From Halanaerobiales bacterium (GTDB lineage Bacteria; Bacillota; Halanaerobiia; Halanaerobiales; DTU029), in contig JAKSCG010000137.1 in assembly GCA_022360715.1 (NCBI GenBank), positions 1 through 64,000 on the forward strand: a DNA stretch of 64,000 nucleotides, read 5' to 3'. The notes under the pieces were generated by a model. That model saw nothing but the letters and a program-made list of their open reading frames with translations, had not been told where the DNA came from and ran no database searches. Below, in pieces: positions 3,563-28,423 of this stretch. The position numbers and the translations under genes are program-made. Each line of letters starts with the position of its first letter. The first letter of the stretch is position 1.

Positions 3563-3889
3563 ATGTTGGAACTGAATAAGGATAATTTTGAAAATGAGGT
3601 AATCAAGGCGGCCGGAACGATAGTTGTTGATTTTTGGAGTGAAAGCTGTGAGCTCTGCCTGGAGTTAATGCCTGATTATCAAAGAATAGCAGAAGAATAT
3701 GGTGATAAGCTTAAATTTGCTAAACTGGATATTAAAGGTAGTCGACGACTGGCAATGAGTCAGCAGGTAATGGGGCTTCCCTCGTTCGTCTTTTATGTTG
3801 ATGGAAAGAAAAGTGAACATTTAAGTGGGGAAGACCTTGATGCTGAAGAACTGGAGAAGACCGTCAAGGAGTTTTATGAGCAAGCCTGA
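3563..3889 (+). CDS. trxA: Glycine reductase-associated thioredoxin
   Basis: A 108-residue thioredoxin with the active site WSESCELC (C29, C32) in place of WCGPC, a variation typical of thioredoxins in grd operons. The cis-proline region is MGLPSFVFY. It is expected to carry electrons from TrxB to the selenoprotein GrdA, re-reducing its Se-S bridge after each turnover. Strong ribosome site (GGGGGAGGTG, then AAAGG) before ATG 3563; grdE follows after 17 bases. Confidence 0.92.
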   Translation: MLELNKDNFENEVIKAAGTIVVDFWSESCELCLELMPDYQRIAEEYGDKLKFAKLDIKGSRRLAMSQQVMGLPSFVFYVDGKKSEHLSGEDLDAEELEKTVKEFYEQA

Positions 3890-3906
3890 GCAAGGGGGGT
3901 GAAACT

Positions 3907-5190
3907 ATGAAATTAGAACTGGGTAAGATCAAGATTAAGGATATTATCTTCGCTAATAATACCGAAATAAAAGATGGGGTTTTAGCGATTAATCGTCAGG
4001 AATTGATCTCCCTCCTGGCTGAGCCCAGGATTAAGGAGTTAACGATTGAGTTGGCTAAACCCGGTGACCGGATTCGGATTATACCGGTTAAGGATGTCAT
4101 TGAACCCAGGGTTAAAGTTGAAGGGCCAGGTGGTATTTTCCCCGGGTTTATTGCCGGGGAGGAGATCGTTGGCTCGGGTAAAACCCATGCCCTGAAAGGA
4201 ATGGCGGTAGTAACTACCGGTAATATTGTCGGATTCCAGGAAGGCATTATTGATATGGCGGGAGTAGGTGCTGATTATACCCCATTTTCGAAATTATTAA
4301 ATGTGGTTATAAGCTGTGAGGTAAGCGCCGGACTTCCTCAACATGAACATGAAGCCGTTCTCCGTATGGTCGGTTTGAAGGCAGCGGCTTATCTGGGTGA
4401 GGCCGGCCGGGAGATTAAGCCCGATCAAGTGGTCTGCTATCAACACAAACCGTTTTATGAAGCGATCAATGATTATCCCGACCTGCCCCGGGTTGGCTAT
4501 ATTTATATGTTGCAGAGCCAGGGACTGCTCCATGATACCTATGTTTACGGGGTTGATGCCAAGGAGATTTTACCGACCTTAATCTCACCGACCGAGGTGA
4601 TGGATGGAGCGATCATTAGCGGGAATTGTGTCTCAGCCTGTGATAAAAATGCGACCTATTTTCATCAAAATAATCCGGTGATTGAAGACCTTTACCGATA
4701 TCACGGCCGGGAATACAATTTTATCGGTACGATTGTTACCAACGAAAATGTCACATTAGCCGATAAAGAGCGGTCTTCCAGTTTTACGGCCCGATTAGCT
4801 GAGCAGTTAAAACTGGAGGCGGCAATAGTATCGGAGGAGGGTTTTGGCAATCCTGATGCCGACCTGATCATGAATTGTAACAAGTTGGAGGAAAAAGGGA
4901 TTAAAACCGTGCTAATTACTGATGAATATGCCGGAAGGGACGGTGCTTCACAATCCCTGGCCGATGCCAGCAAAAAGGCTAATGCGGTAGTAACGGCCGG
5001 GAATGCCAATCAGTTGATTACCCTGCCCCCGATGGAACAGACGATTGGAGAGCAGAGTCTGGCTGACGTAATTGCCGGTGGTTTCGCCGGGAGCTTAAAA
5101 GAAGACGGAAGTATTGAGGTAGAGATTCAGGCAATAACCGGTTCAACCAATGAACTCGGTTTTACCAAAATGACTGCCCGGTCATATTAA
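3907..5190 (+). CDS. grdE: Glycine reductase complex component B, alpha/beta proprotein
   Basis: 427 residues, the full family length. GrdE is made as a proprotein that is cleaved before a conserved Cys to give two subunits of protein B, the larger number ending with a pyruvoyl (carbonyl) group that forms a Schiff base with glycine. The cleavage motif [11 protein letters not shown] is present with the Cys at residue 241. With the selenoprotein GrdB it makes the substrate-specific component. No UGA codon. Ribosome site AAGGGGGGTG just before ATG 3907; it is followed closely by grdA. Confidence 0.95.
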
Positions 5191-5209
5191 TAATCTGGAG
5201 GTGGATAAG

Positions 5210-5677
5210 ATGTTAAAGGGTAAAAAACTTGTTATTCTCGGTGACCGTGACGGTATCCCCGGTCCGGCCATTGAGGAATGCTTAAAAACTACGGAAGCGG
5301 AAATTGTTTTTGCTACAACCGAATGTTTTGTCTGAACAAGCGCTGGTGCGATGGATCTGGAAAACCAGGCTCGAATTAAGGAATTGGCGGAAAAACATGG
5401 CCCCGAAAACCTGGTAGTAATTCTGGGAGGGGCAGAAGCTGAATCCTCAGGCCTGGCCTGTGAGACGGTTACTAATGGTGATCCCACTTATGCCGGTCCA
5501 TTAGCTGGAGTCCAGTTAGGACTCGCGTGTTATCATGTCCTGGAAAGTGAAATCAAGGATGAAATAGAACCGGAAGTATATGATGAACAGATTAGTATGA
5601 TGGAAATGGTGTTGGAGGTAGAGGAGATTATCGCCGAGACCAAGAAATATCGTGAGATGTATGCAAAATATCAATAA
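5210..5677 (+). CDS. grdA: Glycine reductase complex selenoprotein A
   Basis: 155 residues when the in-frame TGA at 5333-5335 is read as selenocysteine (Sec42). The motif is CFVU followed by [11 protein letters not shown], the hallmark of GrdA. Protein A takes the carboxymethyl group from protein B as a selenoether and passes it, as a ketene-level intermediate, to protein C, being oxidised to a Se-S bridge in the process. Start ATG 5210 follows TGGAGGTGG. An automatic caller would truncate this gene to begin at the internal ATG 5351. Confidence 0.97.
5333..5368 (+). promoter_or_regulatory. bSECIS-like hairpin of grdA
   Basis: The UGA codon (5333-5335) is followed by CTGGT (5343-5347) which can pair with ACCAG (5364-5368) around a 16-base loop. 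This is the position where bacterial SECIS elements bind SelB in the reading frame. The fold is by eye only. Confidence 0.6.
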
Positions 5678-5701
5678 ATCCCGGTGAAGGAGGGGGTGGA
5701 G

Positions 5702-7015
5702 ATGAGTCAAGGAAAGCTAAAGATCATCCATTATCTGAATCAGTTTTTCGGACAGATCGGCGGGGAAGAAAAGGCTAATATAGCGCCGCTAATTAAAGAA
5801 GGTCCGGTGGGACCCGGAGGAGCGCTCAATAATGGCCTGGCCGGTCTGGCTGAAATTAGTAAAACGATGATCTGTGGGGATAGCTATTTTAGTGAAAACC
5901 TGGCTGCCAGTAGGGCGGAAATAAAACAGATGCTAACCGAGGAAAAACCAGACCTGGTTCTGGCCGGACCGGCATTTAACGCCGGACGATATGGGATCGC
6001 CTGTGGAAATGTGGCCGAAATTGCCACTGAACTGGGGATTACTGTTATATCCGGTATTTACCCTGAAAACCCTGGTTACGACCTCTTTAAACAATATGCC
6101 TATTTTGTAGAGACAGGTGATAGTGCGGCTAGTATGCGCCAAGCTATTCCCAATATGATTAAACTGGTCAAAAGCTATTTTGAACAGGGAGGTAAATTGG
6201 GTTCACCGGAAGAAGCAGGGTATCTTCCGCGGGGAGTCCGTAAAAACCTTTTTGTTGAAAAAAGGGGTTCCCTCCGAGCAGTTGAGATGTTGATTAAAAA
6301 ACTTAAAGGAGAACAGTTTGAGACTGAATACCCGATGCCCGTCTTTGACCGGGTTGAGCCAAGGCCACCGGTCAAGGATATTACTAAAGCTACGGTTGCA
6401 CTGGTTACTTCCGGTGGGATTGTGCCGAAAGGCAACCCGGATCGGATTGAGTCTTCCAGTGCATCGAAATATGGTAAATATAGTATTGCCGGGCTTGATG
6501 ATCTAAGCACTGCGGAATATCAGACCGCTCACGGGGGATATGATCCGGTTTATGCCAATGAAGATCCCGATCGCGTCCTTCCAGTGGATACCTTGCGCGA
6601 GCTGGAAAAAGAGGGAAAGATAGGCAAAATGCATGACCATTACTATTCAACCGTCGGTAACGGGACAGCAGTTGCTGCCGCCCGGGCTTATGCCCGTGAG
6701 ATTGCTGACGAGTTGGTTAATGATGGTGTGCAGGCCGTTATTTTGACTTCAACCTGAGGTACCTGCACTCGTTGCGGTGCAACGATGGTAAAAGAGATCG
6801 AGAGGGCTGGTTTACCGGTTGTTCATGTTGCAACAGTAGTACCGATCTCCCAAACGGTAGGAGCCAATCGAATCGTCCCGGCAGTAGCTATTCCTTATCC
6901 ACTCGGTGATCCCAAGTTAGTCCGGGAAGAGGAAAAGTTGTTAAGGAGAGAACTGGTCGAAAAAACCTTAAAGGCGCTGGAGACGAATATTAGCGAGCAG
7001 ACGGTTTTTGCTTAA
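5702..7015 (+). CDS. grdB: Glycine reductase component B, selenoprotein gamma subunit
   Basis: 437 residues with selenocysteine at residue 352 (TGA 6755-6757) in the motif TSTUGTCTRCGA. ATG 5702 is chosen because AAGGAGGGGGTG lies just before it; the upstream in-frame GTG 5684 would place the ribosome site inside the gene. GrdB is the substrate-activating subunit that forms the Se-carboxymethyl bond to be handed to GrdA. The N-terminal part KIIHYLNQFFGQIGGEEKA is characteristic and separates glycine- and betaine-type GrdB only weakly; the grdE context argues for glycine. A naive call would give two fragments split at 6757. Confidence 0.96.
6755..6781 (+). promoter_or_regulatory. bSECIS-like hairpin of grdB
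   Basis: Directly after the UGA, TGCAC (6764-6768) pairs with GTGCA (6777-6781) around an 8-base loop TCGTTGCG. Size and distance from UGA fit a bacterial SECIS element. Confidence 0.65.
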
Positions 7016-7025
7016 TATAAAGATG

Positions 7026-7060
7026 ATAGGCAATGGTCTCAGGTACCATTGCCTATTTTC
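7026..7060 (+). terminator. Strong hairpin between grdB and grdC
   Basis: A perfect 12-bp stem, ATAGGCAATGGT (7026-7037) with ACCATTGCCTAT (7045-7056), a 7-base loop, then TTTC. It could be a partial terminator or an mRNA processing/stability element that sets the ratio of grdA/grdB to grdC/grdD. The short T run makes full termination unlikely, and no new promoter is visible before grdC. Confidence 0.55.
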
Positions 7061-7087
7061 AAATTCGGAAAATGAGGTGAACTATTG

Positions 7088-8632
7088 ATGATATTTCCAG
7101 TTTTAAAGGCCAGCAGTTATATCTTGATTCATACTCCGGATACCTTAAAACACTATGGGTCAACCCAGGTCACTACCAGGGCCAAAGATAGTCATGACGA
7201 TTACCTGAAGCAACTGAATCGGCATTTAAGGGATTTTAAGCAGGTGGTTAATTATGCCCCCAATCAATGCTATATTGGCAATCTGTTACCCGATCAGTTG
7301 ACTGAAATCAACCAGCCCTGGTATGCCGAGGCCAATCTGCTGGAAGGTAAGCGCTTCGGGGAGCTGGGTGAGTTAATGCCGGAAGACGAATTTTATGGCC
7401 TGGTTAAACACGTTGACTCTTTTGATCTGGTTAAACTGACGGCTGCTTTTACTAAACAGGTTCAGGAAAAGTTAGCCGAACACCCGATTTTTAGTCAACA
7501 AAACCTGGCCTTAGGGGCAGGTAATGAACTGTCTGAGATCAAGCAGTTACTGGCCGAACAGGATGCTGCCCCTCTTTATTTTAAAGATCAACTGGTCGGT
7601 TGTATTAAAAGGGCTCATGAAAGCGATGAGAATTTGAATTCTCATGTTATGCTGGAAAACTTAATGGCTAAGGCTTCGGCTTATCTGGCGATCATCAATC
7701 TCCAGGCGAAGAGCGGGGTTGATTTGTCGACAGTGGAATATGTTGTTGAATGTTCTGAAGAAGCATGTGGTGATATCAACCAGCGGGGTGGCGGAAATTT
7801 TGCCAAAGCAATTGCCGAATCCGCCGGTTGTATCAATGCTACCGGTGTCGATATGCGAAGTTTCTGTGCCGGTCCGACCCATGCCCTGGTCAATTCGGCA
7901 GCGCTGGTTAAGGCCGGGGTTTACAAAAATGTGCTGGTAGTAGCCGGTGGTTCTGTTGCTAAACTGGGGATGAATGGGAAGGATCATGTCAAAAAAGAGA
8001 TGCCGGTGTTGGAGGATGTGCTGGGTGGATTTGCCGCTTTGATTACCGCCAATGACGGACTTAGCCCGGTGATTAGAACAGATGTGATCGGCCGGCATAA
8101 GGTCGGAACCGGGTCTTCACCCCAGGCGGTTATTTCCTCGCTGGTTACTGAACCCCTTGATCAGAATAAGCTTAAATTAGTTGATATTGATCGCTATTCG
8201 GTTGAAATGCAGAACCCGGAAATTACTAAACCGGCCGGAGCCGGCAATGTTCCCGAAGCAAATTACAAGATGATTGCCGCCTTGGGAGTAAAAAGGGGTG
8301 ATCTGGAGAAAAAAGATTTACTGGATTTTGTGAAAAAACACGGTATGCCCGGTTTTGCTCCCACTCAGGGTCATATTCCGTCCGGAATCCCTTTCCTCGG
8401 TCATGCCATTAAAATGATGGCGGATAATACGATTGAAAAGGCGATGATCATCGGCAAGGGAAGCCTGTTTCTGGGCAGGATGACCAACCAGTTTGATGGG
8501 GTTTCCTTTTTATTAGAAAAAAATAGCGGAACAGTTGCCCCAGAAGAGGGTTACAATAGTGAGGAAGTAAAAAGGCTGTTTGCTGCGGCGATGCGTAAAG
8601 TAGCTGATTCACTCCTGGGCGAAGGGGAATGA
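7088..8632 (+). CDS. grdC: Glycine reductase complex component C, beta subunit
   Basis: 514 residues, as expected for GrdC. Protein C (GrdC and GrdD) takes the two-carbon unit from GrdA, forms an acetyl-enzyme and releases acetyl phosphate with inorganic phosphate. GrdC is related to beta-ketoacyl-ACP synthase III (FabH); the VVECSEEACGD stretch near residue 220 and the MRSFCAGPTHAL stretch near 258 show the thiolase-type cysteines. ATG 7088 is preferred to TTG 7085 because GAGGTGA lies seven bases before it. Confidence 0.93.
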   Translation: MIFPVLKASSYILIHTPDTLKHYGSTQVTTRAKDSHDDYLKQLNRHLRDFKQVVNYAPNQCYIGNLLPDQLTEINQPWYAEANLLEGKRFGELGELMPEDEFYGLVKHVDSFDLVKLTAAFTKQVQEKLAEHPIFSQQNLALGAGNELSEIKQLLAEQDAAPLYFKDQLVGCIKRAHESDENLNSHVMLENLMAKASAYLAIINLQAKSGVDLSTVEYVVECSEEACGDINQRGGGNFAKAIAESAGCINATGVDMRSFCAGPTHALVNSAALVKAGVYKNVLVVAGGSVAKLGMNGKDHVKKEMPVLEDVLGGFAALITANDGLSPVIRTDVIGRHKVGTGSSPQAVISSLVTEPLDQNKLKLVDIDRYSVEMQNPEITKPAGAGNVPEANYKMIAALGVKRGDLEKKDLLDFVKKHGMPGFAPTQGHIPSGIPFLGHAIKMMADNTIEKAMIIGKGSLFLGRMTNQFDGVSFLLEKNSGTVAPEEGYNSEEVKRLFAAAMRKVADSLLGEGE

Positions 8633-14258: not shown

Positions 14259-14357
14259 GGGGGTGGCTGTGCCCATGGTGGGCACCTCGGACTTCAAATC
14301 CGGTGGCAGGACGGTAGACCGCTCTGTGGTGGGTTCGATTCCCACACATTCCCGCCA
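14259..14357 (+). tRNA. selC: tRNA-Sec (anticodon TCA)
   Basis: A 99-base long-form tRNA. Acceptor strand GGGGGTGG (14259-14266) faces ACATTCCC (14346-14353), then G and an encoded CCA. The D arm has a 6-bp stem, GTGCCC with GGGCAC, and a 5-base loop; the anticodon loop is CTTCAAA with TCA at 14294-14296; there is a long variable arm (CAGGACGG with CCGCTCTG); the T arm is GTGGG-TTCGATT-CCCAC. All are hallmarks of bacterial tRNA-Sec. The acceptor has two adjacent G-T pairs and a G-A mismatch at the eighth position. The prophage integrase gene begins about 110 bases downstream, so the 3' part is probably the attL site. Confidence 0.95.
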
Positions 14358-21926: not shown

Positions 21927-23366
21927 ATGAGAATACTAAAAAAGATTACAATTGAAAACTTCCAATGCCATCCTAAAACAGTTATTAAGCCCTCTCCGGA
22001 GGGCTTAACTGTTATCACTGGACCAACAGATCACGGAAAATCAGCAATTGTCCGCGCAATCAAATGGTTACTATACAACCGACCACTGGGTAATGATTTT
22101 ATCAGGCATGGCCAAAACGAATGTAAGGTTGTGTTTGAATATGAGGACGGGACTACAGTAACCAGAAGACGCACAGCTTCATTAAATCAATATTACATAA
22201 ACAATCAACTATATGAGGGATTCGGTAATGATATTCCTTTGGAAGTTCAACAGGCAACAGGTGTATATCATTATAATGTTGCTGATGAAATTTTGAAGCT
22301 AAACATTGCCGAACAGTTGGCCGGGCCTTTTTTAGGTAGCTCAATATCCGCACCGCTTAGGGCAAAGATATTAGGGAAATTGGCCGGGACTGAGGATATT
22401 GACCGGGCCAATAAGAAGCTGGGGAGCGATATTTTTCGTGGTAAGCAAAATAAAAATGCATTTGAACAGGCGTTATCTGAATTAGATAACAAAATAGATA
22501 TTTATAATTGGGTTAATCCATTAGGAGAAACCCTGATTAAACTGGAGGCGATATATGTTCAGATTCAGGATGATAATAACAGGTTGGAATTACTACAAAA
22601 AAAGAAAGAACAGCTAAATCAACTAGATGATAACATACAACAGCAAAATAAGTTGCTTAAACAATATAGAGGATTGCCTGAAACATTTAATATTATCAGA
22701 AAAATTGAGCCAGATATTAAATCATACATTGACTTAACTCAAAAAAACAATAAATGGAATTTATTAACCGGACAAATAAGCAACCAGGAACAAATAATTA
22801 AAAAATCCGGCAGTCCGGATAAGGCGATCAAATATATTGACAAAGCAGGCGAACAATTAACAATATTAAAATCAATTCATCGAAATAAAAAACAACTTAA
22901 AGATGTCAAAATTTCTTCGATCCTTAATAGAACAATAATTAAAGAGACCGGCAACCCATCTGAAGCATTAAAAATATTACATAACTGCAACAATGATATT
23001 AATCAACTTATTTATGTCAACAAAAAAAATGTTGAACTTAAAGATGCAAAAAAACAAATTGATTTAAAGTCCAAGATATTAAAACAGCATCAGGGGATAA
23101 AGGAAGCCAAAAACATTATTAATTCTACAGAAAATAAGATATCCAATTTATTAGAACTAAAAGCTAAAAAAATTAAACATATTGATAAATCAAAAGAAAT
23201 GGCAATATTTGAACGTAGAATTAAAGATATGAATAAAGTTATCAGACATTACAATAGCGAATTAGAATCGTCCAAAAAACAATATAAGAAACTGCTCAAA
23301 GAAGCCGGTGTCTGTCCAACGTGCGGAGGCAAGGTTAAAGATGAATGTCTTAAAACTGTAATATAA
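21927..23366 (+). CDS. Rad50/SbcC-like ATPase, N-terminal half ending in a zinc hook
   Basis: 479 residues. Walker A is GPTDHGKSAI (about 32-39) after TIENFQCH, typical of Rad50/SbcC/RecF. A long coiled coil (about 190-455) follows, ending in C463-P-T-C466-GG, the zinc-hook motif, after which the chain stops. It has no ABC signature or Walker B; these are in the separate gene at 24049. Thus the two halves must associate to make a working ATPase. With the Mre11-like nuclease it should process DNA ends for replication or recombination. Ribosome site AGGTGG. Confidence 0.85.
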   Translation: MRILKKITIENFQCHPKTVIKPSPEGLTVITGPTDHGKSAIVRAIKWLLYNRPLGNDFIRHGQNECKVVFEYEDGTTVTRRRTASLNQYYINNQLYEGFGNDIPLEVQQATGVYHYNVADEILKLNIAEQLAGPFLGSSISAPLRAKILGKLAGTEDIDRANKKLGSDIFRGKQNKNAFEQALSELDNKIDIYNWVNPLGETLIKLEAIYVQIQDDNNRLELLQKKKEQLNQLDDNIQQQNKLLKQYRGLPETFNIIRKIEPDIKSYIDLTQKNNKWNLLTGQISNQEQIIKKSGSPDKAIKYIDKAGEQLTILKSIHRNKKQLKDVKISSILNRTIIKETGNPSEALKILHNCNNDINQLIYVNKKNVELKDAKKQIDLKSKILKQHQGIKEAKNIINSTENKISNLLELKAKKIKHIDKSKEMAIFERRIKDMNKVIRHYNSELESSKKQYKKLLKEAGVCPTCGGKVKDECLKTVI

Positions 23367-23379
23367 GGAGGTATTACTT

Positions 23380-23556
23380 ATGTTGGAAGATGTTATTCGT
23401 ATTTTAAGCAATAAGATTGACCAGCTTCAAAGGAAACGTGATTTTGAGAAAAGATGCAATAATCAACCCAATGCTGAAACTTTTAATTATTTTCTTAAGG
23501 AACTTAGGGAAATAAGATTACTGATTGCCCGAGAAATCAAACAAAGGGAGGCGTAG
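23380..23556 (+). CDS. Small helical protein
   Basis: 58 residues, MLEDVIRILSNKIDQLQRKR and so on, basic and helical, start after AAGGAGGTATT. Lies between the halves of the Rad50-like ATPase. Unknown function. Confidence 0.6.
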   Translation: MLEDVIRILSNKIDQLQRKRDFEKRCNNQPNAETFNYFLKELREIRLLIAREIKQREA

Positions 23557-23561
23557 CAGGT

Positions 23562-23822
23562 ATGGAAGATAAAAATTATATTGACAGGCTAAACACTTTA
23601 AAGGCATTGGCGGAACAAAAGCAAGAAGAAAAGACCAGGGCTGAAGCTACCCTGGAGAGCTTGGAAAAAAGAAAGGATGAAATAGAGGCTGAACTTAATG
23701 AAATGGGCGTTAAACCAGAGGACTTAGAAGAACAGATCCAGGAATTGCGGGTTAGTATTGAGGACGGGCTGAATAAGGCGGAGGAATTGTTAAAGCCTGT
23801 CGAAAATGAACAGGCGGTGTAA
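23562..23822 (+). CDS. Coiled-coil protein between the split Rad50 halves
   Basis: 86 residues, almost wholly a charged coiled coil (EQKQEEKTRAEATLESLEKR; EDLEEQIQELRVSIEDGLNK). It starts five bases after the previous stop. It could be a detached part of the Rad50 coil or a partner of it; length and heptads agree with either. Confidence 0.65.
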   Translation: MEDKNYIDRLNTLKALAEQKQEEKTRAEATLESLEKRKDEIEAELNEMGVKPEDLEEQIQELRVSIEDGLNKAEELLKPVENEQAV

Positions 23823-23824
23823 AA

Positions 23825-24052
23825 ATGGCAAAAATGACATTAATGCCACCAAAACCCGGAGTGTGTCAAGAATGTGCAGTGGACCATCATCCCGCTTTGC
23901 CGCACAACAAAGACAGCCTATATTACCAATATTATTTTCACGGCAAACATGGACGTTGGCCAACATGGAAAGACGCTTTAGCTCATTGCAACGAAGAAGT
24001 TCAAAAGAAATGGGAAAATGTGTTGAAAGAAAAAGGGGTCGATATTGAATGA
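23825..24052 (+). CDS. Small protein with Cys/His motif
   Basis: 75 residues. GVCQECAVDHHPALPHN gives CxxC plus HH, a possible metal site; WPTWKDALAHCNEEVQKKW follows. It overlaps the next gene by four bases (ATGA). Unknown function. Confidence 0.65.
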   Translation: MAKMTLMPPKPGVCQECAVDHHPALPHNKDSLYYQYYFHGKHGRWPTWKDALAHCNEEVQKKWENVLKEKGVDIE

Positions 24053-24696
24053 ACATAACCAACCTCCAACTTCACATTAAACAATACCGGAGCAAATACG
24101 AGCAGGGCAAGGGCCAACTTGCCCTGCTCAAGTCTCAACGAAAAGAAAAGAAAGCACAGCTTGACCAGCTTATAAGTGATTTGCAGGATTGGGAACTGGT
24201 CAAGGTCCTCTTTGCCGAAACCTCTGAATTTGCCCGGGAGCAACTGAAAAAGAAAATCGAGAACACAGTAACAGCCGCTCTACAATCAATTATAGATGAT
24301 TCTGACCTTAAATTCAAAGTTGAAATTGATAGAAAAGCAAACCAGCCGGTAGCTGAATGGAAGATTATTAGCCGGTATGGGGATGAATATGTAGCTGAAT
24401 CCCCGGAAAATGCCCGGGGAGGAGGAATATCTGACATAGTAAGTATCGCTTTGAGGCTTGCATCTCTGGAACTGGCCAGGCCTCAAAATGAAGGCATTTT
24501 GACCGCGGATGAACCGGGAAAACATGTCTCGGCTGAATATGCTCCTAATTTGGCGGCGTTCCTTAAGGAGTATTCAGAAAAAACCAGGCGACAGAGTATT
24601 ATGATCACTCATAATCGCGACCTGGCTGAAAGCGCCAATAAAAGGTATGAGGTTGGTCGTGATAGTGAAGGTAATAGCGGGGTGAAAGAATTATGA
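24049..24696 (+). CDS. Rad50/SbcC-like ATPase, C-terminal half
   Basis: 215 residues: a short coiled coil (1-60), then a head lobe with the ABC signature-like ARGGGISDIVSIALRL (about 122-137), Walker B ILTADEPGKHVS (about 149-160) and the switch His in MITHNRDLAE (about 185). There is no Walker A. It complements the gene at 21927. In usual Rad50/SbcC both parts are one chain, so this is a split version. It overlaps genes on both sides by four bases. Confidence 0.85.
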   Translation: MNITNLQLHIKQYRSKYEQGKGQLALLKSQRKEKKAQLDQLISDLQDWELVKVLFAETSEFAREQLKKKIENTVTAALQSIIDDSDLKFKVEIDRKANQPVAEWKIISRYGDEYVAESPENARGGGISDIVSIALRLASLELARPQNEGILTADEPGKHVSAEYAPNLAAFLKEYSEKTRRQSIMITHNRDLAESANKRYEVGRDSEGNSGVKEL

Positions 24697-24896
24697 TGCA
24701 TATACCAGAAGCATATAATTGTCCATGTTGTGACGGTAAAGCAATGTTAAGTGTACAACACCTAATGATTATCGAATGTGAAAGTTGCACCAGATTCTCA
24801 GTATCATCTGAAACTATTTCAGGGGCGGTTAAGAAATGGAACAAAAACGTTGACTCAATATTAGAATCTGATTTAGGTTGTGATATCAATGAATGA
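24693..24896 (+). CDS. Lar-like zinc-ribbon protein
   Basis: 67 residues: NCPCCDGKAMLSVQHL, ECESCTRFSVSS, GAVKKWNKN. The spacing CxxC-x20-CxxC followed by A-x-x-x-WN matches the Lar/restriction-alleviation family of small phage proteins. A role against host type I restriction is suggested by the family name only; many members are untested. A type I R subunit remnant lies at the left of this window. Confidence 0.6.
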   Translation: MMHIPEAYNCPCCDGKAMLSVQHLMIIECESCTRFSVSSETISGAVKKWNKNVDSILESDLGCDINE

Positions 24897-25950
24897 TATC
24901 AAATTCATTGTAACTGGCGATCTACACTGGACCGGTAAAAATCCTAAGGCCAGGCTGGATAATTACAAGGAGGCTTTGTCCCTGAAGCTTAAAGAAATAT
25001 TTGAACTGGCGCTTCATCATAAATGCAAAGGGGTAATTATTCCGGGGGATATTTTTGATAGCCCAGGCGCTTCATTATCAGTAATAAGCGAGCTGGGCAA
25101 CCTTCTATATCAAGCATCTAAAATGGATGTAAAAACAAATCCAAGTGTTATACCGGACCCATTGTGTCCTATGGATATATTCACAATTGCCGGCAACCAT
25201 GATGTGTATTCTGGCAATAAAAATACTTTAAATAGAACACCTTATGGGCTGTTGAAACAATTCCGTATACTCACCCATATAGAAGAGTTCGTATTTCCGG
25301 GATTTGGACTGGTATTACAAGGGCATAGTTATAATGCGGAAATTACCGATAAAGCTCTAAGTTATTACTTGCCGCATGATAGCGATTTTTATATTGATGA
25401 ACCCAGAATTAAAATGTTGGTCACGCATGGAATGTTGCTGGATAAAGCCCCAGGTTATGAGCTTAGACATACATTAATGTCAGACGTAGCAGAACACCCC
25501 AATGCCCCTGATATACTTATTAACGGCCATGAACACAATGGATTCGGTATTAAAAAAATTAACAACACCCTTTTCATCAACCCTGGGTCCATTGGTCGGA
25601 TTAAAGCCACCGAAGAGAATATCAACCGTATTCCCCAGGTTGCACTGCTGACAATACCGACAGAAGGAAAAGGTGATCCATTCGCTGAGTTAATACCTCT
25701 AAAAAGTGCTAAACCTGGTCATGAAGTATTATCCAGGGAGCACATTATAGAAGAAAAGAAGCGGAAAGAAATGACCCAGAAATTTTTAGAATTGTTGGCT
25801 GAGGAAGGCGAGAGTAAATACCAGGACCTGGAGCAGGTTGTCAAGGGGATTGGTAAACGTAAGCACCTACCTAAGCCCATTGTTAATGAAGCATTGAAGA
25901 GATTGGCTGAAGCACGAGAGGAGGGGGACCATGAACAAAGGTCGAGGTAA
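24889..25950 (+). CDS. Mre11/SbcD-like metallophosphoesterase
   Basis: 353 residues. Phosphoesterase motifs in order: VTGDLHWTG, IIPGDIFDSPG, IAGNHDVYSG, VTHGML and INGHEHNGFG, followed by FINPGSIGR. These bind the two metal ions of the nuclease. It is the expected partner of the split Rad50. ATG 24889 overlaps the previous stop; the upstream in-frame GTG 24880 is also possible. A C-terminal helical tail (about 280-353) may bind Rad50 coils. Confidence 0.9.
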   Translation: MNDIKFIVTGDLHWTGKNPKARLDNYKEALSLKLKEIFELALHHKCKGVIIPGDIFDSPGASLSVISELGNLLYQASKMDVKTNPSVIPDPLCPMDIFTIAGNHDVYSGNKNTLNRTPYGLLKQFRILTHIEEFVFPGFGLVLQGHSYNAEITDKALSYYLPHDSDFYIDEPRIKMLVTHGMLLDKAPGYELRHTLMSDVAEHPNAPDILINGHEHNGFGIKKINNTLFINPGSIGRIKATEENINRIPQVALLTIPTEGKGDPFAELIPLKSAKPGHEVLSREHIIEEKKRKEMTQKFLELLAEEGESKYQDLEQVVKGIGKRKHLPKPIVNEALKRLAEAREEGDHEQRSR

Positions 25951-26191: not shown

Positions 26192-28423
26192 ATGAATTTT
26201 GCTAATGAAGTGGAAGAATGGGAAAGAGAGACTACTGAAAAAAAAATTAAACTAACTGAACTCAAAAGCCGGAAAGAAATAATCGGCGTACTTGACAGAA
26301 TAGTTTTCTCTAGTCCCAAAAGCGGATATTGCGTCCTGAAAATTGACCACAAAAACCCGGCGATGTTAATTACTGCCGTAGGATATATGAGCAGTCCGCA
26401 GGAGGGATCAGAGTATAAATTCAAAGGAAGTTGGAAAGAACACCCGAAGTATGGAGAACAGTTCCAGATAGAGGAATTCGAACTGCTTCTTCCTACCAAC
26501 AAAACGGGAATAACAAAATATCTAGAAAACACCATTTTCGGTGTAGGACCGGTAAAAGCCAGACTGATAGTTGATGAACTGGGGGTAAACGCCCTGGACC
26601 AAATCAAAGCCGATCCGGGGATATTGGAGCAATTTAATTTTATATCGGAATACCAGATCAACCAGGTCCGGGATGACTTAACCCATAATTCTGCCCAGGC
26701 TGATTTTATAGCCAGTATTTGTCGCCGAGGGGTAACCCCTCGTCTAGCTTCCCGGATTTGGGTAACATATCTGACCAGAAAGATAGCACCGGACGAGATC
26801 CAGAAAAAAATTGAAGAGAACCCTTACATATTAATTGACGACATTGACCGGATAGGGTTCTTAACCGCCGATAAAATTGCCCGAACTGTAAGAATAGATA
26901 AGAATTCTTCATTCCGGATTCAAGCAGCAATCAAACACATACTGAAAGAAGCTACCAATGAAGGTCATGTTTATTTGCCTTTTGCTGCAATAGCCAAAAG
27001 AACCAAAAAGCTGCTTGATATCATAATCGAAGATATGACTATTGCCGTGATGGTTAAGAAAATGGCTGATGATATGGAACTGCTAAACCGGGAAGAAAAC
27101 GATGTTTATTTAAAAGAGCTGCATAAAGCTGAAAACCAGCTGGCCGATCAGCTTAAAATGCTCCTGGAAGCAGAAGATGATTTAAAAGCAAGTGATAACA
27201 TAATCAATTATGAGCAGAAGGTCCAGGAAATTGAATATGCACCAGAGCAGATTGAAGCCCTTAAAAAAGCTATTGAAAATAAAGTTTCAATTATTACCGG
27301 CGGACCCGGTACCGGGAAAACCACCGTGATTAGAAGCATATGCAATATCTATCATCGTAATTTGCCGGAGAATGAAATATACCTGGCCAGCCCAACCGGG
27401 AAAGCGGCTAAAAGAATGGAGGAATCGACCGGGAGAGAAGCGATGACAATCCATAGATTGCTTCGCTATAACCCCAACATTGAGGCCTTTACGTTTGGGT
27501 ATGATGATCCATTGCCCGGCCCGGGACTGCTCATAGTAGATGAATTTTCTATGTGTGATCTTCTGCTGGCCCGGGATTTATTCGCGGCGGTTGAACAGGA
27601 TCTGAAAGTTGTTCTGGTCGGGGATGTTGACCAGTTACCCAGTGTAGGTCCCGGGAGCGTACTAAGAGATATGATTAACTCTGATACAATCCCGGTAACC
27701 AGGCTCAAATATAATTATCGCCAAGCCAACGGTTCTGTGGTAGCCCGGATGGCTAACGAGATGACAGAAGGAATTGTCCCTGAACTTAAGGATGACGGAG
27801 ATTTTAAATATACAAAGGTTCTTGCCGATGATATAGCAGAACAGGAAACACTTAGCTTAATAAAACAATTAGTAGCCAATGGTAAAACAGTAATGGACTT
27901 TCAAATATTATCTCCAATGCGTAAAGGCAAGTCCGGAGTTAATAACCTAAATGAAAAAATTAGGGATATTGTTAATCCCAAAAACGACAAAAAGCCAGAA
28001 TTAGGTTCTTATAGGCTAAGTGACAAGGTAATGGTTATCCAGAACGATTACCAGAAAGGGGTTTTTAACGGAAACATCGGAAAAGTAGTAGCAATTGAAA
28101 AAAACAATCTTTTCGTCGATATTCTTGATAACGATGACCCTGAACCGGTTATTTTTAAGGCAGAAGAACTGGACTTGCTACAACTTGCTTATGCTACTAC
28201 CATACACAAAAGCCAGGGCAGCGAATTTCCGATTGTAATAATGGCACTAACCAAGAGCCATTTCATTATGTTAAAAAGAAATTTGCTTTATACCGGTATG
28301 ACCAGGGCAAAGGATAAACTTATCCTGGTCACAGACCCTTGGGCGGTCAGGAAAGCTGTTAAAGATAACAAAGTGGAAAAAAGATATAGTAAGCTCGCTG
28401 AAAAATTAAAGAGAGGAGTTTAA
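26192..28423 (+). CDS. RecD2-type DNA helicase
   Basis: 743 residues. An N-terminal OB-like part and helix-hairpin-helix region (NTIFGVGPVKARLIVDELG near 115) precede the superfamily 1B helicase core: Walker A ITGGPGTGKTT (about 369-378), Walker B LLIVDEFSM, motif III VLVGDVDQLPSVGPG, YRQ, and LAYATTIHKSQGSEF and LLYTGMTRAK near the end. This 5'-3' helicase family is common in Bacillota, alone without RecBC. With Mre11/Rad50 it forms the phage's end-processing set. Strong ribosome site AAAGGAGGTATT. Confidence 0.93.
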   Translation: MNFANEVEEWERETTEKKIKLTELKSRKEIIGVLDRIVFSSPKSGYCVLKIDHKNPAMLITAVGYMSSPQEGSEYKFKGSWKEHPKYGEQFQIEEFELLLPTNKTGITKYLENTIFGVGPVKARLIVDELGVNALDQIKADPGILEQFNFISEYQINQVRDDLTHNSAQADFIASICRRGVTPRLASRIWVTYLTRKIAPDEIQKKIEENPYILIDDIDRIGFLTADKIARTVRIDKNSSFRIQAAIKHILKEATNEGHVYLPFAAIAKRTKKLLDIIIEDMTIAVMVKKMADDMELLNREENDVYLKELHKAENQLADQLKMLLEAEDDLKASDNIINYEQKVQEIEYAPEQIEALKKAIENKVSIITGGPGTGKTTVIRSICNIYHRNLPENEIYLASPTGKAAKRMEESTGREAMTIHRLLRYNPNIEAFTFGYDDPLPGPGLLIVDEFSMCDLLLARDLFAAVEQDLKVVLVGDVDQLPSVGPGSVLRDMINSDTIPVTRLKYNYRQANGSVVARMANEMTEGIVPELKDDGDFKYTKVLADDIAEQETLSLIKQLVANGKTVMDFQILSPMRKGKSGVNNLNEKIRDIVNPKNDKKPELGSYRLSDKVMVIQNDYQKGVFNGNIGKVVAIEKNNLFVDILDNDDPEPVIFKAEELDLLQLAYATTIHKSQGSEFPIVIMALTKSHFIMLKRNLLYTGMTRAKDKLILVTDPWAVRKAVKDNKVEKRYSKLAEKLKRGV

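Follow-up and report, generated by a model that had tools for sequence, protein, structure and literature searches.

A Mre11-Rad50 set in a Halanaerobiales prophage and its relatives, with Rad50 apparently divided into three gene products

The stretch of DNA analysed here, referred to below as the window, comprises the first 64,000 nucleotides of contig JAKSCG010000137.1 (C25) of a Halanaerobiales bacterium, whose genome comprises 4.03 Mb. Between positions 21,927 and 25,950 it carries a group of genes that we read, with a probability of about 0.9, as a Mre11-Rad50 machine in which Rad50 is divided into three gene products: an N-half with one ATPase lobe, a small coiled-coil protein that we call X, and a C-half with the complementary lobe. 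Discussions of Rad50 and other proteins of the SMC (structural maintenance of chromosomes) family treat each of them as one long chain folded back on itself. In the set described here, the two lobes are not joined in one polypeptide through an antiparallel coiled coil, as they are in Rad50/SbcC. A preliminary description of the window had reported a 479-residue N-half with a Walker A motif and a terminal CPTC hook, a 215-residue C-half with signature, Walker B and switch histidine, three small genes between them, one of them a coiled coil, and a Mre11-like gene downstream; our open reading frames (ORFs), motif inspection and family searches bear out all of these.

The N-half of the window carries the Walker A motif GPTDHGKS near the start of its chain and the zinc-hook motif CPTC at residues 463-466. 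It matches Pfam AAA_23 (E = 1.5e-13) and, over its full length, PHROG 16465 (E = 3e-58). The two glycines and the lysine of the P-loop are invariant in an alignment of 81 N-halves, and a CxxC motif is found within the last 60 residues, that is, at the chain end and not in mid-chain, in 174 of the 176 complete N-halves (those of at least 290 residues and unfused to C; two shorter ones were excluded). At three loci (L172, at 4299-5752, L059 and L156) the N-half is shortened or broken into two frames, by draft error or by decay.

Between the lobe and the hook lies an arm of about 290 residues, compared with some 55-60 residues for the coil that opens the C-half, so that the unequal coils anticipated in the preliminary description are indeed present. 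The distance from Walker A to the hook falls into classes of approximately 331, 383, 429 and 475 residues among 173 N-halves, with a best common step of 47.5-48, and in the 72 sequences of the main class the columns of the arm repeat at a lag of 47 (autocorrelation 0.76 for hydrophobic and 0.64 for helix-breaking residues). One unit corresponds approximately to a long helix followed by a short turn with G-[IL]-[DE]-E-A. In the structural models described below, the arm helices are mostly 41-63 residues long and break at about the same places, and the second model merges the last two units. Since arm lengths vary in steps of about 47 residues, the arm is, as judged from the sequences, modular, being built of 47-residue helical units in numbers that vary by lineage. 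We have not seen a modular arm described for Rad50.

The C-half of the window contains the signature RGGGISD, the Walker B motif ILTADEPG and the switch-histidine motif ITHN, and no Walker A was seen in it by eye. Residues R123, G124, G125, G126, D154, E155 and H188 are invariant in an alignment of ten C-halves. The protein matches PHROG 15167 over its full length (E = 1.1e-55), the C-half profile finds archaeal Rad50 structures by their C-terminal part (3aux, E = 2.9e-11), and both halves of the window also match PHROG 77, an SbcC-like family. The NCBIfam models for Rad50, SbcC and SbcD score the N-half, C-half and Mre11 of the window and of locus L107 far below their cut-offs; the cut-off of TIGR00618 is reached in none of the 398 genomes of the phylum that we searched, canonical SbcC included.

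To represent the head, the N-X-C pieces of a relative (L109) were modelled by AlphaFold2 as one read-through chain, in which glycine replaced the stops, with 125 aligned rows. Its mean predicted local distance difference test score (pLDDT) is 81 and its predicted template modelling score (pTM) is 0.56; pLDDT is mostly 82-97 in the head, 48-83 in the arm beyond its base and 35-68 in X. The modelled N-lobe and C-lobe superpose on Pyrococcus furiosus Rad50 (4ncj_A; Z 28.1, 3.2 Å over 293 of 311 residues) and on E. coli SbcC (6s6v; Z 23.6, 326 of 364 residues), and SMC heads match equally well (4i99_B, Z 28.5), as the superfamily predicts. The model therefore supports the view that the two lobes would make one Rad50 head. 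A second model, of the N-half and X without C from a phage contig (L195), gave pLDDT values of 58-66 in the P-loop region and 76-90 in X, with 70 in the last block of X; its contrast with the L109 model is only suggestive because L195 is another protein. The fold searches with this second model matched the N-lobe (1f2u_C, Z 12.4) and returned nothing firm on the arm.

The frequency with which the two halves occur together indicates that the split is real and widespread, and we consider this confirmed. The PHROG 15167 search for the C-half matched 123 of the 398 genomes at E = 1e-5, and the 65 with E below 1e-20 were kept; many of the remaining 58 weaker matches are frames of 550-600 residues that we take to be RecN look-alikes. 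The PHROG 16465 search for the N-half, at E = 1e-15, also matched 65 genomes. Both halves are found in 64 of them; G369, which carries a fusion, has the C match only, and G294 has the N match only, its weak C match possibly being a true relative. A search for the C-half within the order of the window gave 2 of 38 genomes, namely the window itself and one weak match.

In the loci examined around the C-halves an N-half is present as well; the exceptions are contig ends, phages Magritte and Tunturi_5, L167 and loci where the C-half stands alone (solo-C loci). The remainder of the genome was searched for ten of the 16 listed solo-C loci, and all ten hold an N-half elsewhere, preceded by Mre11 and followed by X, on another contig or more than 1 Mb apart; in Pseudobacteroides, both halves are on one 6.9-Mb contig at such a distance. 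The solo C-half adjoins folD in the three loci inspected (3/3) and precedes RNase Y in the one inspected. In Microbacterium phage Magritte, the N-half is gene 155 and the C-half is gene 2. The 309-kb phage Tunturi_5 has a C-half (L005, 5779-6468), and the 12 kb read there showed no N-half.

The third piece is conserved too. A profile seeded from the 86-residue coiled coil of the window detects a hairpin protein of 77-106 residues (5th-95th percentile), and the order N-X-C on a single strand holds in all 172 loci in which the three were detected, some of which are near-copies or represent one genome reached by two routes. Among the loci that have N and C with X undetected, the ORFs of nine were inspected, and eight of these (L007, L106, L224, L232, L233, L235, L237 and L239) have a coiled-coil-like ORF of 78-106 residues just before C. 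Our results indicate that the 86-residue protein is, by its sequence conservation and gene order, a conserved member of the set and not a bystander. In gene order, X occupies the position expected for the descending coil of Rad50. Since X stays beside N where C has moved away (10/10 solo-C genomes searched) and is undetected in the fusions without an arm described next, it most likely works with the arm.

The Mre11-like gene of the window matches Metallophos (E = 7e-10) and the SbcD-like PHROG 100, and by eye it keeps the motifs GDLHW, GDIFD, GNHD, THG and GHEHNG. Mre11, N, X and C are found in one locus in 60 of 80 genome contig loci (the best 80 of 283 relatives, a biased sample), in 44 of the 54 contigs of our viral set and in 61 of the 67 loci from the G-numbered genomes. 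Three of these 67 (L040 at 3652-5754, L041 at 3764-5818 and L042 at 4583-6670, one clade) have instead a single chain of 684-700 residues made up of Mre11, the N-lobe, a short link and the C-lobe, with no arm, no hook and no detected X. They are the only N-C fusions that we found. Two viral contigs, L224 and L225, have Mre11 fused to N and a separate C. The L225 locus (3600-7636 on a contig of 218,948 bases) encodes a 769-residue Mre11-N fusion with X and C as separate genes, and we take it, apparently, to be Bacillus phage 0305phi8-36. Unlike these fully or partly fused forms, the window has Mre11 and the Rad50 halves in separate chains. Taken together, the co-occurrence of the halves, the head model and the natural fusions of the lobes support the earlier suggestion that the head is assembled from two polypeptides; relatives in which the halves adjoin as one gene, which would have told against a genuine division, are limited to the three coil-less fusions, and the solo-C genomes keep the halves unlinked.

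The arrangement of the set differs between chromosomes and phages. Among the genome contig loci, Mre11 precedes N in all 61 with readable order; 52 of the 80 have recA at most 2.6 kb upstream of Mre11, and 64 have RNase Y downstream of C. These chromosomal sets belong to Thermosediminibacter, Tepidanaerobacter, Tissierella, Caloramator, Halanaerobacter, Halalkalibacter, Peptoniphilus and others. In contrast, the recA-RNase Y context is absent from all 54 viral loci, and 40 of the 44 viral loci with all four genes have Mre11 after C. In a tree of the N-lobe and C-lobe (74 loci, quick method, midpoint root), the window groups with viral loci, and the majority of the chromosomal loci lie apart from it, with several branches long or weakly supported. 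A chromosomal-type set also occurs on a contig labelled as a Deltaproteobacteria metagenome-assembled genome (L157), by misbinning or by transfer.

Genomes with the split set rarely possess SbcC. Matches to TIGR00618 (E up to 2e-20) were found in 2 of 65 split genomes versus 165 of 333 others (Fisher p = 1.2e-14, a value that ignores descent); two candidates were scored per genome, and weaker matches in split genomes, down to 3.5e-16, were not counted. Both SbcC-positive split genomes have the phage-type gene order. PF13558, with up to twelve candidates per genome, gives the same two genomes once a confounding class of strong non-SbcC frames is removed, mostly of 1100-1470 residues and presumably Wadjet JetC-like. 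The host of the window has no TIGR00618 match, yet it carries a Mre11-like gene (457 residues) and a Rad50-like gene (972-residue frame) as a pair on contig C41 (L258), so the exclusion says nothing about the prophage. The conserved X, the 47-residue repeat of the arm, the recA-linked chromosomal form and the near-exclusion of SbcC go beyond the preliminary description.

Three other explanations have to be weighed. That the split is a frameshift, a sequencing error or a broken gene, or that programmed frameshifting or readthrough of the stops joins the pieces, is by far the least credible of them. Readthrough is possible at L109 and L185, where N, X and C share one frame with single stops between them, but only 4 of the 108 loci with all three on the plus strand have them in one frame, and a frameshift does not account for an N-half that ends in a hook so regularly. 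Because the halves are unlinked in the solo-C genomes and in Magritte, we consider frameshifting excluded. Nor do we expect the halves to act separately, the N-half as a coil protein that carries one ATPase lobe on its own and the C-half as a partner of another ABC ATPase, for example the host SbcC, RecN or SMC. This is an improbable arrangement, although the fact that the halves can be unlinked and the C-half of Tunturi_5 speak for it, since the two halves occur in nearly the same genomes, the fusions join both lobes, the P-loop is invariant in N as are the signature and Walker B in C, and most split genomes are without SbcC to serve as partner.

Marginally less probable again is that the set represents a defence system of the Lamassu, Gabija or PARIS type and not a repair machine. 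Weak PADLOC matches exist, to LmuB for the N-half (E = 3e-11) and to AriA for the C-half (E = 6e-7), but these reflect the shared ATPase fold, and the Mre11 partner, the zinc hook, the recA linkage and the rarity of SbcC fit repair.

Some observations do weigh against a three-piece Mre11-Rad50. Two N-halves lack CxxC, namely gp155 of Magritte and one broken draft gene, and L149 has no X-like gene among the ORFs inspected at that locus. The similarity of X to the coil of the C-half (hhalign probability 54.5%; controls 0.4%, 0.6% and 2.8%) is weak and only a hint, and a relationship of X to the arm repeat, considered because of a G-x-P-E turn that they share by eye, was dropped at an hhalign probability of 3.5%. 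The chief limit of the L109 model is that co-folding is favoured because the pieces are tethered in one chain, with stops as glycine; X is placed with low confidence in it, and its pTM is 0.56. The SbcC exclusion is uncorrected for descent and draws on few candidates per genome, and the second Mre11-like/Rad50-like pair is present in the very host of the window.

On balance, we favour the divided Mre11-Rad50 machine. The N-lobe, long arm and zinc hook would come from the N-half, and the complementary C-lobe with a short piece of descending coil from the C-half; as modelled, both halves fold together into one ATPase head. By analogy with canonical Rad50, the terminal CPxC motifs of two N-halves would hold one zinc ion between them and so pair the chains, and X, placed where the missing descending coil would be encoded, would most likely pack on the arm. 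Two heads with a Mre11 dimer may then bind and cut DNA ends as SbcCD does; the partnership with Mre11 and the nuclease action are what we infer from the genes. Judged by its distribution, the chromosomal set most likely takes the role of SbcCD. The prophage set most likely acts in recombination and replication of the phage, as gp46/47 does in T4. A wider proposal, to which we give distinctly less than an even chance, is that the three-piece Rad50 is a distinct and widespread class of the SMC family, common to chromosomes and phages, with a head that is a heteromer of two half-ATPases, a descending coil that has become the separate subunit X of about 83 residues, and exchangeable 47-residue modules whose number sets arm length. 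Because head and arm would not be covalently closed in such a class, the ring around DNA could be opened and re-formed by exchange of subunits. In many Clostridia and their relatives, this class would have replaced SbcCD in the operon of recA.

In the window, the set is placed in the early region of a prophage that fills the stretch from 14.3 kb onward. The integrase adjoins a tRNA-Sec gene (14259-14357), downstream of host genes that are presumably glycine-reductase-like. The 3' part of tRNA-Sec, 68 bases, is repeated exactly at C25:74069-74136, and the prophage is therefore about 60 kb long. The genes of the set and their neighbours are compiled in Table 1.

Table 1. Genes of the divided Rad50 set in the window and its neighbours.
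Feature	Coordinates	Strand	Evidence and remarks
Rad50 N-half, 479 residues	21927..23366	+	ORF, Pfam, PHROG; N-lobe with Walker A, arm of 47-residue helical repeats, CPTC
58-residue gene between N-half and X	23380..23556	+	No PHROG match, no Pfam match above cut-off; bystander or lineage-specific
X, 86-residue helical hairpin/coiled coil	23562..23822	+	Conserved third piece, encoded between N and C or with N; helices in the model of a relative
75-residue gene between X and C-half	23825..24052	+	No PHROG match, no Pfam match above cut-off; 4-base overlap with C-half start
Rad50 C-half, 215 residues	24049..24696	+	Short coil and C-lobe with signature, Walker B, switch His
67-residue Lar-like zinc-ribbon gene between C-half and Mre11	24693..24896	+	PHROG 599, E = 2.8e-6; presumably restriction alleviation
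Mre11/SbcD-like phosphoesterase, 356 residues	24880..25950	+	Metallophos match; partner gene
RecD2-like helicase	26192..28423	+	Neighbour outside the set; comes after a 78-residue ORF downstream of the Mre11-like gene

A natural three-piece Rad50, together with the coil-less fusions, makes it possible to ask what purpose the covalent coil serves. With the split set, many Clostridia in which SbcC is not detected would have a recA-linked repair complex. PHROG 16465 and PHROG 15167 would become parts of one machine, and the half-missing ATPase of phage 0305phi8-36 would be explained. No published split Rad50 was found in a literature search that covered neither preprints nor most subscription journals, and within that scope the set is a variant for which we found no published description. 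The nearest report is that of Mre11/Rad50 fusions by Yoshida et al. 2011 (PMC3175470), which involve the same partners; the 0305phi8-36 protein, which resembles that of L225, was reported there to lack one P-loop segment, treated as not observed, and the terms "split" or "two genes" were not found in the examined passages of that paper. The missing lobe is apparently the separate C gene of L225.

Compared with SbcCD of E. coli and the archaeal Mre11-Rad50, the set has both ATPase lobes with their motifs, the CxxC zinc hook and a Mre11/SbcD gene nearby. It differs in that Rad50 is one chain in those systems and three genes here, with the hook at a chain end, an arm of 47-residue units and a C-half without a long return coil. 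T4 gp46/gp47 is likewise a phage-borne Rad50/Mre11 pair, and the matches of both halves to PHROG 77 and of Mre11 to PHROG 100 are in keeping with this likeness; gp46 is a single chain, whereas its counterpart here is divided. In the PHROG collection, the two halves are filed apart, the N-half as PHROG 16465 ("exonuclease") and the C-half as PHROG 15167 ("ATPase"), neither being named as half of a Rad50.

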